DNA from: an uncultured Candidatus Nitrosopumilus sp.
GTDB taxonomy: Archaea > Thermoproteota > Nitrososphaeria > Nitrososphaerales > Nitrosopumilaceae
NCBI GenBank assembly: GCA_951812655.1
Contig: OX638319.1
Location: forward strand, 682,001 to 746,000
DNA: 64,000 bases
Direction of reading: 5' to 3'
Below are positions 7,342-59,492 of this stretch, one piece after another. Every line of letters starts with the position of its first letter. Position 1 is the first letter of the stretch. Under the pieces are notes generated by a model that had not been told where the DNA came from, did no database searches, and saw only the letters and a program-made list of their open reading frames with translations. A program made the translations under genes and the position numbers.

Positions 7342-7349
7342 TTTATATG
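7342..7349 (+). promoter_or_regulatory. TATA box deciding the start of the next gene
   Basis: TTTATATG lies about 26 nt before the ATG at 7371. It overlaps an earlier in-frame ATG at 7347, so that earlier codon cannot be the start of a normal transcript. Confidence 0.55.
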
Positions 7350-7370
7350 CAAAAAACTCGAAAAATCACA

Positions 7371-9155
7371 ATGAAAAGTACGCAACTTCTAAGCGTTGTT
7401 TTTTCACTGATTATGTTTACCGGCGTTACAGCTGGAAACGCAGCATTTGCTGAATCAGATGACATTGATGATATTCTAGAAGACTTTTGTGAAATGACAC
7501 TTGAGGAACAAAGCGACATTCTGTCCGAATATGATCTGGATGACTATGCAGACAAACTTGCAGCCATCTGTGAAATTGGCGATGAGGATGAGCGCGAGGA
7601 TTCACTTGAGGACGTCATTGACGCAATGGATCTAGATACGCATGATGACGAAACTGACGACGACTCTGATGACATCATTGAAGATTTTGAAGACTGCGTT
7701 GAAGCTGGACATCCAGTAATGGAATCGTATCCAGAGCAATGCAAGACTGATGACGGTCAAGTCTTTACAAATACAGACGATGACGACGATGAGCATGACG
7801 AAACAGATGACTACTACAGATACGAAACTGACGACGACTTTGATCTTGACGACCTGCTTGATGAATACTGCGAAATGACTGACGAAGAACAACGTCAATT
7901 GTTGGCAGACCATCCAAGGCTTGCACCATTTGGTGACAGACTGGCAAACTATTGCGAAATGTCCGAAGATGAGCAAGACGCAATCGATGAGCTAATCGAG
8001 GAGCATGGAGACAAAATCAGAGCCGAACTCAGGGAATATTCCAAAGACTATCGAATGGATTACAAAAAGGACATGATGAAGCATCTTACAAACTATTGTG
8101 AGATGTCTGATGCCGACAGGAAGGCATTTGTCGCAGAAAATGACAAGGCCGAAGATCATGAGGAGAAAATGAACGGTTACTGCGAACTTGATGAGGACGG
8201 AAAAGCCGACTTTATCGAGGAACACAGAGACGAGTACATTGCTCACATGAAGGAGAAGATGAATGACGGCAAGAAACATCACATGGACTACAGCAAGATG
8301 TGCGAACTGTCCGAATCAGACCGCGCATTGAAGATAGATGATCCTGAAAAGCTTGAAAGACTCTCTGCCTGGTGCGAAATGACACCTGAGGAGAAAGAGG
8401 ACTACAAGAAGGAGCATCACGGAGATGCCAAGATGATGAACAAGTCACAATACATGGAGAACAAGAAACATCACATGGACTACAGCAAGATGTGCGAACT
8501 GTCCGAATCAGACCGCGCATTGAAGATAGTTGATCCTGAAAAGCTTGAAAGACTCTCTGCCTGGTGCGAAATGACACCTGAGGAGAAAGAGGACTACAAG
8601 AAGGAGCATCACGGAGATGCAAAGGATGAGAAGAAGCATGAACTGAAAATGCATCTATCTGAGAACTCCGATTCAATCAAGGAGATGATCATGGAAAAGC
8701 GTGATCTTTCCGACGAGAGAAGAGAGGAAATCAAGATGAAGTACATAGAAAAGCATGGCGAACTGACTGACGAGAGAAAGTCAGAACTCAAAATGAAGTT
8801 CATGGATCACATGAAGACGATCAAGCACAAAATTTCTGATGAGCGCAAGTCTGACATTCATGACAGGCTGGCTGAGATGAAGGCCTTCAAGGCAGAACTC
8901 CGCGAAAAGGCATCAGAAATGACTGACAAGGAAAAGCAACAACTTAGAGAAGAATTCATTGAAAAGGCAAAGGACATGCGACTAGCATGGATTTCCCCCC
9001 ACACGCAAATGACTGCAGGCGTTGACGCAGCAGAAGTCCAGTGTCGCGAGGGACACAGCCTGGTAATGAAGGAATCAAACGGTGCCGCAATGTGCCTCAA
9101 GGCAAATACAGCACTGAAGATGATTGAGCGAGGAATCGTAGTTCCTGCAATCTAA
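7371..9155 (+). CDS. Secreted acidic protein with repeated two-cysteine CE(M/L) modules
   Basis: The 594-residue protein has a signal peptide ending ..GNAAFA (about residue 27). It is extremely acidic up to about residue 165 and carries five modules in which two C-E-[MLI] motifs flank 23-30 helical residues; the first pairs are Cys40/Cys67 and Cys167/Cys195. Between modules 1 and 2 is a DCVEAGHPVMESYPEQC segment, a motif seen in many secreted archaeal and bacterial proteins. The last part is a long charged helix, then VQCREGHSLVMKES and MCLKANTALKMIERG, a C-terminal pattern common in thaumarchaeal secreted proteins. Modules 4 and 5 are an almost exact DNA duplication. Possible roles are metal or cation binding or cell-surface architecture; none is proven. 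Confidence 0.75.
   Translation: MKSTQLLSVVFSLIMFTGVTAGNAAFAESDDIDDILEDFCEMTLEEQSDILSEYDLDDYADKLAAICEIGDEDEREDSLEDVIDAMDLDTHDDETDDDSDDIIEDFEDCVEAGHPVMESYPEQCKTDDGQVFTNTDDDDDEHDETDDYYRYETDDDFDLDDLLDEYCEMTDEEQRQLLADHPRLAPFGDRLANYCEMSEDEQDAIDELIEEHGDKIRAELREYSKDYRMDYKKDMMKHLTNYCEMSDADRKAFVAENDKAEDHEEKMNGYCELDEDGKADFIEEHRDEYIAHMKEKMNDGKKHHMDYSKMCELSESDRALKIDDPEKLERLSAWCEMTPEEKEDYKKEHHGDAKMMNKSQYMENKKHHMDYSKMCELSESDRALKIVDPEKLERLSAWCEMTPEEKEDYKKEHHGDAKDEKKHELKMHLSENSDSIKEMIMEKRDLSDERREEIKMKYIEKHGELTDERKSELKMKFMDHMKTIKHKISDERKSDIHDRLAEMKAFKAELREKASEMTDKEKQQLREEFIEKAKDMRLAWISPHTQMTAGVDAAEVQCREGHSLVMKESNGAAMCLKANTALKMIERGIVVPAI
8271..8624 (+). repeat. Intragenic tandem duplication, 192-bp period
   Basis: The segments 8271-8432 and 8463-8624 are nearly identical over 162 bp. 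The clearest difference is A versus T at 8338/8530 (Asp to Val), plus a wobble change near the end. The in-frame 64-codon period adds one complete two-cysteine module, which suggests a recent duplication. Confidence 0.95.
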
Positions 9156-46975: not shown

Positions 46976-47488
46976 ATGGATTATAAAATACCGGACATTG
47001 AAAAATCATTTGTAGGAAAGATCATACAAAATCTTGGAAATAATGATTATGTAATTAAAATCGATGATAACGAACATGCTCTAAAAATCATAACCATGGA
47101 TTCTACAGGCGTCGAATTTGTTTTGGATCAAAAGTATCACAAGGCAAAATACCTTGAACAGTCTATAAATGAAATGAATGTTGTAATTGACAACGTTCCT
47201 GTTACTCTAAATTTACATTCTCATTTTGATAAAATCGTCTACAAGAACTCTGGTGGTTCAGGTTCTGGAAGTTCTCAATTAGGACTGAAAAGCCAAATTC
47301 CTGGAAAGGTTGTATCTTTGGCCGTTGCTGAAGGTGATTCTGTACAGAAAGGTGATGTTGTATGTACTTTGGAATCTATGAAAATGCAGGTTGCAATTAA
47401 AGCCCATAAAGATGGTGTTGTAAAATCAATTAAAGCAAAAGAAACTGCCACTGTTGCTAAAGGTGACATAGTTGCAGAAATTGAATAA
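46976..47488 (+). CDS. accB: Biotin carboxyl carrier protein
   Basis: The 170-residue carrier has a C-terminal biotinyl domain with ESMKMQ; Lys136 is the biotinylation site, flanked by the usual valine/glycine strands (GDVVCTL, GDIVAEIE). The N-terminal half is specific to archaeal carboxylases. Its TAA stop is inside the first unit of the 19-bp tandem array. It delivers carboxybiotin between the two preceding subunits. Confidence 0.93.
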   Translation: MDYKIPDIEKSFVGKIIQNLGNNDYVIKIDDNEHALKIITMDSTGVEFVLDQKYHKAKYLEQSINEMNVVIDNVPVTLNLHSHFDKIVYKNSGGSGSGSSQLGLKSQIPGKVVSLAVAEGDSVQKGDVVCTLESMKMQVAIKAHKDGVVKSIKAKETATVAKGDIVAEIE

Positions 47489-47632
47489 GAAATTTTTATT
47501 GTTTTAAGAAATTTTTATTGTTTTAAGAAATTTTTATTGTTTTAAGAAATTTTTATTGTTTTAAGAAATTTTTATTGTTTTAAGAAATTTTTATTGTTTT
47601 AAGAAATTTTTATTGTTTTAAGAAATTTTTAA
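47486..47632. repeat. Tandem array of a 19-bp unit between convergent genes
   Basis: The unit TAAGAAATTTTTATTGTTT starts at 47486, 47505, 47524, 47543, 47562, 47581 and 47600 (seven copies), with a partial eighth at 47619. The first copy contains the accB stop codon and the last full copy the peroxiredoxin stop codon (47610-47612). The copies look identical and each carries a T tract readable as a terminator for accB. No spacers, so not CRISPR. Confidence 0.95.
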
Positions 47633-57098: not shown

Positions 57099-58583
57099 AT
57101 GTTAGAAATTACTTCAACTCCATTGGTTTTAATCGCAATACTGGGAACGGTGGGAATACTTCTTCCTATAATCAGTATTGTTAGAAAAGAACAAGGATCA
57201 AACTCATTTTATGCTGTAATTGCATTTGCCGCATTAATTGTATCCATGGGTTATGTTGGATACCAGTTCATAAATGAGAATGTTGTATCATCTGCTCTTT
57301 TCTCTGATGATGTAATAGTTGATGATGCATTTGGTGGATTCTTTGCAATTGCAATGCTAATTGTTGCTATCTTCACCACCGTTGGCTCGTTTAATTACAT
57401 GAGAAAGCATAATTCTCCCGCTGTTTACTATTCCTTGATCCTTCTTGCAACGATAGGAATGGTGTTGGTTGCATATTCAACTGATCTAGTCATGTTATTT
57501 GTCGCGTGGGAGCTGATGAGTATTCCTACGTATATCTTGGTCGGCTATATGAAAAAGAATCCTAGCTCAAATGAAGCCGCTTTGAAATATTTCTTGTTTG
57601 GTGCGTTATCATCGGCAATTATCGTTTACGGAATCTCAATTTCATATGGATTAACTGGTTCAACCAATATTGGAGAAGTAATACAGGGCTATTCCACACT
57701 CGATCCTTCACTTTTGCCTCTTGCACTACTTTCAGTTGGAATGTTTATCGCAGGATTTGGATTCAAGATGGGACTCGTGCCTTTCCATCAGTGGTTGCCA
57801 GATACCTATGAGGGAGCTCCACCTGCTATTACTGCACTATTGGCCGCTGCAACAAAGAAAGCCGGATTTGCTGCGACAATCAGAATTGTGGTTTTGGGAA
57901 TGGTCGTTCTAAATCTTGATTGGACATTGGCACTTGGTATAATCGCAATCATGACAATGACAATTGGCAATGTTGCTGCAATCATGCAAAAGAATATTTC
58001 CAGAATGTTGGCTTATTCTAGTATCGCACATGCAGGCTATATCTTGATTGGATTAGCTGTTGCGCCTCACAGTTCTCTTGGTTTACAAGGATCTTTGTAC
58101 CAAATAATGAACCATGCAGTCATGAAAGGTGCTGCGTTTATTGCAATTACAGGTATCGTTACAACTCTTGCAGTTACTCACATTGACAAACTTAAGGGTC
58201 TTGGAAGAAGAATGCCGATTACTGCACTAGGACTCGTGCTTGCATTGTTTGCATTAGCTGGAATTCCTCCTCTTTCCGGATTCTGGAGTAAGTTGATGTT
58301 GTTTGGTAGTGCATTAGATGCTAGTTCTGCATTATGGTGGGCTCCTTGGCTTGCAATTGCAGGTGTTCTTAACAGTGCGTTGTCTCTTGCTTACTACGGC
58401 TGGTTAACAAGAAAAATGTACTTTGAGGGAGAAAATGAAAAGAGAGTTGCAGAACCAAAATCAATCATTGCCGTGATGATCTTCTCATCTATATTCCTAG
58501 TAGGATTTGGTGTATATCCGGAACCCTTGCTGAAATTTGTAGAGCTCGCGACTCCTGTGGTTAGTTTGGGTCTTATGCCTTAA
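57099..58583 (+). CDS. nuoN: Complex I subunit N
   Basis: The 494-residue antiporter-like subunit closes the operon. It has AWELMSIPTYILVGYMKKN, KMGLVPFHQWLPDTYEGAPP and QKNISRMLAYSSIAHAGYIL. Its stop TAA is inside the first copy of a 67-bp tandem duplication shared with the convergent prenyl synthase gene. The end of the protein (VVSLGLMP) is encoded within that repeat. Confidence 0.93.
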   Translation: MLEITSTPLVLIAILGTVGILLPIISIVRKEQGSNSFYAVIAFAALIVSMGYVGYQFINENVVSSALFSDDVIVDDAFGGFFAIAMLIVAIFTTVGSFNYMRKHNSPAVYYSLILLATIGMVLVAYSTDLVMLFVAWELMSIPTYILVGYMKKNPSSNEAALKYFLFGALSSAIIVYGISISYGLTGSTNIGEVIQGYSTLDPSLLPLALLSVGMFIAGFGFKMGLVPFHQWLPDTYEGAPPAITALLAAATKKAGFAATIRIVVLGMVVLNLDWTLALGIIAIMTMTIGNVAAIMQKNISRMLAYSSIAHAGYILIGLAVAPHSSLGLQGSLYQIMNHAVMKGAAFIAITGIVTTLAVTHIDKLKGLGRRMPITALGLVLALFALAGIPPLSGFWSKLMLFGSALDASSALWWAPWLAIAGVLNSALSLAYYGWLTRKMYFEGENEKRVAEPKSIIAVMIFSSIFLVGFGVYPEPLLKFVELATPVVSLGLMP

Positions 58584-58670
58584 ACGATGTAAATTTTATC
58601 AATTTTGTAGAGCTCGCGACTCCTGTGGTTAGTTTGGGTCTTATGCCTTAAACGATGTAAATTTTATCAA
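58536..58670. repeat. 67-bp direct tandem duplication at the nuoN/prenyl synthase junction
   Basis: Copies 58536-58602 and 58604-58670 (period 68) appear identical throughout; the bases beside them differ. Copy 1 holds the nuoN stop (58581-58583); copy 2 holds the prenyl synthase stop (58641-58643). In a single-copy ancestor the two stops would overlap by about 11 bp. Confidence 0.95.
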
Positions 58671-59492
58671 ATTGTCTAAGTTCATTTTTGCGTCACTGTC
58701 TGGGATTTTTCTTAAGCTTGTTCTGGCTTTTTCTGAAAATTCTTTTAGTAACTCTTCCATTTTGTTGAACACGTCTCTGGGGTCTGAGCTCTTTTTAATC
58801 AGCAAGTTGAACAGTTTGTCCTCATTTTTCCAATCTAGTAAATCATCTCGAATCTGATATGCAATTCCAAGATTTTTTCCATATGACGTTAGCAATTCAA
58901 TTTGTTCATCTGTCCCGTTAGCAATTATTGCTCCAGCTCTGGCTGCTACTTCAAATGCCGTTGCAGTTTTGTATTCAATTACTTTGAGGTAATCATCAAA
59001 TGTCACATCTTCACTGGTCTCCAATCTGCCTTCTATCATCTCCCCTTCACTCATCAGCATGGCAGTGGTTGCCAAATCTTTAGTAATTCTCGCATTGTCT
59101 AACCTGGATGAGATTGCCAAAATTAACCCCAAAACAAAATCCCCTGTTAGGACACTGGTGTTGTACCCGTACTTGATGTGGAATGGTTCTTTCTGCCTTC
59201 TCATAGTCTCATTATCTATTATGTCATCATGAATGATTGATTCCATGTGTAGAAATTCAACAGCACAAGAAGCTGCTAACACGTTTTCATCGATTTTACC
59301 CACTGTTTCTGCAGATAAATTCAAAATAATTGGTCTTATTCGCTTGCCGCCTTCTAAGGAATATTTTAGTGGTTCAATAAATTCAGATTCAGAGTATATT
59401 GAAAGTTCATCTTCAAGAGCTTGATCTATTCTTTTGATATATTTTCCATAGGTTTCAAGTAGAGGATTTATCTCGATATTTTTCCTGTCCAA
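58641..59492 (-). CDS. Polyprenyl (geranylgeranyl/farnesyl) diphosphate synthase
   Basis: The enzyme (283 residues from the TTG at 59492) condenses isopentenyl units for archaeal membrane lipids. It has GGKRIRPIILNL, the first Asp-rich motif HDDIIDNETMRRQ, and the second QIRDDLLDW; a small residue pattern before motif 1 suggests a C20 product. An apparent extension to 59693 overlaps the tRNA-Glu gene and is rejected. A TTG at 59507 is another possible start. The C-terminus (TSFKA) lies in the tandem repeat. Confidence 0.88.
   Translation of the reverse strand: MDRKNIEINPLLETYGKYIKRIDQALEDELSIYSESEFIEPLKYSLEGGKRIRPIILNLSAETVGKIDENVLAASCAVEFLHMESIIHDDIIDNETMRRQKEPFHIKYGYNTSVLTGDFVLGLILAISSRLDNARITKDLATTAMLMSEGEMIEGRLETSEDVTFDDYLKVIEYKTATAFEVAARAGAIIANGTDEQIELLTSYGKNLGIAYQIRDDLLDWKNEDKLFNLLIKKSSDPRDVFNKMEELLKEFSEKARTSLRKIPDSDAKMNLDNLIKFTSFKA

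Follow-up and report, generated by a model that had tools for sequence, protein, structure and literature searches.

In the closed, single-contig 1.67-Mb genome of Nitrosopumilus, an ammonia-oxidising archaeon, the convergent junction between nuoN and a polyprenyl diphosphate synthase gene carries a short tandem duplication that is real, recent and of a known kind, located at a recurrent site. Very likely, the duplication arose by a slippage-type event that left both proteins intact and was close to neutral, and in this source genome (G000) it is probably neutral. Positions refer to the 64,000-nucleotide stretch of DNA that was analysed (the window) and are collected in Table 1.

Table 1. Positions of genes, repeat copies and breakpoint motifs in the window.
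Feature	Position	Strand	Basis or remark
nuoN, NADH-quinone oxidoreductase subunit N, 494 aa	57099-58583	+	Pfam PF00361, 4.8e-68
Polyprenyl (geranylgeranyl-type) diphosphate synthase	58641-59492	-	Pfam PF00348, 4.2e-50
Copy 1 of the 68-bp unit (AAATTTGTAG...TTTTATC)	58533-58600		nuoN coding end and start of spacer
Copy 2 of the 68-bp unit	58601-58668		Spacer and synthase 3' end
Spacer between nuoN and synthase stops	58584-58640		57 bp, created by duplication; ancestrally an 11-bp overlap
Left microhomology AAATT (nuoN Lys-Phe codons)	58533-58537	+	Sequence; G036 breakpoint comparison
Right microhomology AAATT inside the synthase gene	58669-58673	+	Duplication joins back to left AAATT
Array of 19 bp x 7.7, accB/peroxiredoxin convergent junction	47486-47631		TRF

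The two genes are located on opposite strands and converge. For nuoN, the best NCBIfam match was TIGR01770 (NuoN, 6.4e-98), slightly below the family cut-off; the synthase reading frame stays open to 59693 with a TTG start. Direct comparison of the window sequence gave 100% identity over 67 bp between 58536-58602 and 58604-58670, and a chance origin of this identity was excluded (about 3e-30). The preliminary description had reported a 67-bp duplication at 58536-58670, and the two identical copies of that length were recovered; the period, however, is 68 and not 67, as a single T (58603) stands between them. Tandem Repeats Finder (TRF) called 58536-58670 with period 68, 2.0 copies, 100% match and a score of 270. 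Comparison with the relative G036 resolved the repeat into two adjacent 68-bp copies of the true unit, for which a later A-to-T change at 58603 is the sole mismatch. Each gene uses a different copy, as had been proposed: copy 1 holds the nuoN stop codon TAA (58581-58583), and copy 2 holds that of the synthase (58641-58643). Vestigial counterparts of the synthase stop (58573-58575) and of the nuoN stop (58649-58651) were found inside copy 1 and copy 2, respectively.

A single copy had been predicted to bring the two stops into an overlap of about 11 bp, and strain comparison had been suggested for finding that state. Both expectations were borne out. Among relatives, the overlap was exactly 11 bp in 101 of 111 locus rows, a set which counts some genomes twice (two collections) and comprises 82 distinct single-copy junction sequences. 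Overlaps of 18 or 26 bp were seen in three more distant rows, and two further rows did not extend far enough to be scored. A second batch (26 rows) gave the same value (-11) throughout, except for the rows of the four duplicated genomes. Twelve genomes of the genus consist of a single contig. Only two of them, G000 and G036, were duplicated, and eight gave -11 on direct reading; for G006 and G027, only the absence of the two-copy pattern is established. The sequence common to both gene ends, ATGCCTTAA, encodes NuoN Met-Pro-stop on one strand and synthase Lys-Ala-stop on the other. Thus, the 3' ends of the two genes share coding bases on opposite strands, and this arrangement is conserved in relatives. 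Direct repeats with adjacent copies were found together with a single-copy ancestor, and sequence comparison supports the view that tandem duplication of that ancestral junction, with its 11-bp overlap, produced the junction of the source genome.

Short homologies were found at both breakpoints. In G036 the copy junction is exactly as expected from joining AAATT in nuoN (AAATTTGTAG) to AAATT in the synthase end (AAATTGTC), and the source genome agrees with this expectation except for the A-to-T change. Duplicated junctions were also found in G021 (locus L049), with breakpoint homology of about AATT, and in G085 (locus L101), where the same nuoN site is combined with a later AAATTT (or TAAATTT). 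The nuoN-side start site is the same in all four duplicated genomes, and the microhomologies are AT-rich and 4-7 bp long. Flanking direct repeats of at least 10 bp were present in 13 of the 82 single-copy relatives and in 3 of 228 other tight convergent junctions (nominal p = 4e-6, with rows related by descent).

In the proposed mechanism, one event of the slippage type, between short direct repeats rich in A and T, would copy 68 bp covering both stops. Such a unit would hold the complete 3' ends of both genes, with the left copy ending nuoN and the right copy ending the synthase, so that neither protein would be changed and the mutation would be tolerated. The unused half of each copy would then drift, and the two gene ends would evolve independently. 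The simplest reading invokes slippage between the flanking repeats; we infer that this was replication slippage and not some other process based on microhomology, and that its product was nearly neutral. Slippage is not proved by these motifs, because a microhomology of 4-7 bp is easily found in AT-rich DNA, and three to four events at one junction with a common left breakpoint could speak against blind slippage alone.

The duplicated junction was present in the four genomes only, with unit lengths of 68 bp (G000 and G036, same breakpoints), 62 bp (L049) and 77 bp (L101). A search of 250 family genomes for the perfect duplicated pattern matched only G000, G036 and G021. Misassembly is frequent for tandem repeats. 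Nevertheless, an assembly artefact has a negligible probability here: G000 is assembled into one closed contig, the duplication is also present in G036, a second and separate closed genome, with a sequence variant peculiar to it, and two drafts carry decayed versions.

Between the two copies, 1 of 68 sites differs in G000 and 0 of 68 in G036, whereas copy 1 differs between the two genomes at 8 of 68 sites. Identity within but not between genomes can be explained only if the events were independent and used the same breakpoints, or if the copies were homogenised. In a DNA tree of nuoN and the synthase gene (37 rows), four changes were needed: G036 pairs with the single-copy G068 (100/99) with G000 outside, and the L049 and L101 duplications are located in separate clades beside single-copy sisters. 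From the tree placement and the differences within and between genomes, the junction was therefore duplicated at least three times, and four times if G000 and G036 are separate.

Only the last count depends on whether G000 and G036 share an event. A single old duplication, inherited by G000, G036 and G068 from their common ancestor, with its copies kept alike in each genome through gene conversion or cycles of contraction and expansion, is a serious possibility, rated just short of even. It would account for the identical breakpoints in both genomes, and the accB 19-bp array is likewise found in both, with units one fixed base apart. The 8 of 68 differences between the genomes, compared with 0-1 within each, and the grouping of single-copy G068 with G036 argue against it, and separate events require no homogenisation. 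The single copy in G068, a draft, may itself be an assembly collapse, because long perfect arrays are missing from drafts: arrays containing >55 bp of uninterrupted identity occurred at 22.5, 32.5 and 13.8 per Mb in samples of closed genomes versus 4.4 and 3.7 per Mb in draft samples. This scarcity is a sign of collapsed repeats. Since drafts under-report perfect repeats, duplication counts in drafts are lower bounds. The draft loci L034-L111 and L268-L287 with L033 had roughly 4-9 times fewer long-identity arrays than closed genomes.

The fate of the freed halves was followed in the two decayed duplications. In L049 the nuoN-coding copy had 0 changes over 59 bp relative to the single-copy sister, and the other copy had 9 changes in its freed half plus 2 silent changes in the synthase part. 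In L101 the synthase end changed from FKA-stop to FTV-stop (Lys-Ala to Thr-Val), and copy 1 keeps NuoN Met-Pro-stop; under the old overlap, these substitutions would also alter the last two residues of NuoN. Judged from these comparisons of aligned copies, freed halves decayed in both lineages and the halves still coding were kept. The perfect identity of the copies might be taken as the mark of a functional element in DNA or RNA, for instance a terminator or regulatory site present in duplicate. This explanation is extremely unlikely, given that freed halves decayed in the older duplications and that most relatives are without the repeat; in addition, no terminator-like site was found in the junction region by a bacterial-type scan.

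Together, the genomes form a natural series from a single copy with overlap to fresh identical copies (G036, G000), a partly decayed state (L101) and a strongly decayed state (L049). The series shows the uncoupling of overlapping convergent genes without change to either protein, and it shows that the old overlap constrained both C-termini. A stronger reading holds that duplication at this recurrent site was a favoured one-step route that freed the gene ends from their shared 11 bp, followed by separate evolution of the C-termini (RIS_SAG_04, Lys-Ala to Thr-Val). This reading is considered rather unlikely.

The preliminary description had further suggested that convergent junctions are preferred sites of tandem repeats and that the duplication was selected to relieve the overlap. 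For the survey it had proposed, 2.0 Mb of regularly spaced stretches from nine closed genomes were used (G000, 800 kb; G036, 400 kb; seven others, 800 kb), with genes called by a home-made gene caller. Most strong arrays lay inside genes and kept the reading frame. At convergent junctions 5 were found versus 5.15 expected from random placement; two of these correspond, in G036, to arrays of the window itself, leaving 3 unselected arrays outside the window. When thresholds were loosened, the rates of unselected arrays were 3 of 411 for convergent, 5 of 409 for divergent and 10 of 1260 for codirectional junctions (Fisher p = 1.0). Of the arrays that span a junction, 1 was convergent and 1 codirectional (p = 0.36), too few for more than low power. 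In the 2.0 Mb of closed genomes, tandem repeats were thus not found in excess at convergent junctions relative to the others, and enrichment at convergent junctions was rejected. TRF arrays overlapping convergent junctions were also counted in the 20-kb neighbourhood of 70 relatives, giving 3 of 287, two of them at the nuoN-synthase junction; compared with 2.0 expected by placement, these are too few to claim a hot spot.

Selection for relieving the stop overlap, or a clash of converging transcription or replication, fared no better. The duplication separates convergent genes in one step with neither protein altered, it recurred at this junction, and both G000 and G036 carry a further array at a convergent junction 11 kb from this one. 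These points are outweighed by the lack of an array excess at convergent junctions, by the 11-bp overlap kept in almost all relatives, by the overlap of one third of convergent pairs in G000 (62 of 181 in the sample, most commonly by 4 bp) and by the result of the terminator scan, which leave such selection highly improbable. Strong selection to relieve an 11-bp overlap would be unlikely in any case, because this overlap persists across the family and convergent overlaps are common.

Compared with known short tandem duplications at microhomologies, the junction is of the same kind: one extra copy of tens of bp was added, the breakpoints are located in 4-7 bp direct repeats, young copies are identical and older ones decayed. 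It differs in that the repeat spans both stops of overlapping convergent genes and its visible result is gene separation; the mechanism is one that we infer. The ancestral nuoN-synthase state is an ordinary short convergent overlap as known from prokaryotes. Convergent overlaps are reported to be commoner in Archaea than in the majority of Bacteria (PMC2174442), and movement of start and stop codons has been discussed as a route to overlap formation (PMC4161906). In contrast to that route, the present case is the reverse, with an overlap lost by tandem duplication. The word 'duplication' is absent from the main text of both papers, and nothing relevant on tandem repeats at convergent genes in prokaryotes was found among open-access papers. 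Because perfect tandem repeats are hidden in draft genomes, surveys of such duplications must use closed ones.

Perfect tandem arrays abound in G000, in the manner of the coding and intergenic minisatellites of Nitrosopumilus, and the accB 19-bp array is of that kind. Most of these minisatellites are intragenic with periods divisible by three, whereas the nuoN-synthase repeat has two copies and spans a junction. The accB array had been noted as a second tandem repeat at a convergent junction in the window, and it is real. It has 7.7 copies in G000 and 13.6 in G036, with units differing by one fixed base (also L161 7996-8253; L213). In the draft G068 the accB junction holds about 1.6 copies of a variant 19-bp unit, and other relatives have a short gap without the array. 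The distribution is the same as that of the nuoN duplication, with the same caution on G068.

Further tandem repeats were recorded. A 192-bp unit (1.9 copies) is located in frame (64 codons) at 8270-8636 of the window, within the open reading frame 7347-9155, and very long perfect in-frame coding minisatellites were found in G000 with units of 24 bp (31.7 copies, L134 2680-3439) and 15 bp (58.6 copies, L140 4862-5740). A third convergent junction of this genome has a junction-spanning repeat of 25 bp in 2 copies (91%) with a 14-bp gap (L139 14508-14556; about 614508-614556 of G000:C1). Perfect or near-perfect 41-bp arrays are located in long codirectional intergenic gaps (L145 17866-18111 in G000, 6.0 copies; L171 1198-1365 in G036, 4.1 copies). 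In G004, a 251-bp tandem duplication (L177 5757-6216; 1.8 copies, 98%) spans a codirectional junction and represents an analogous event in a different orientation.
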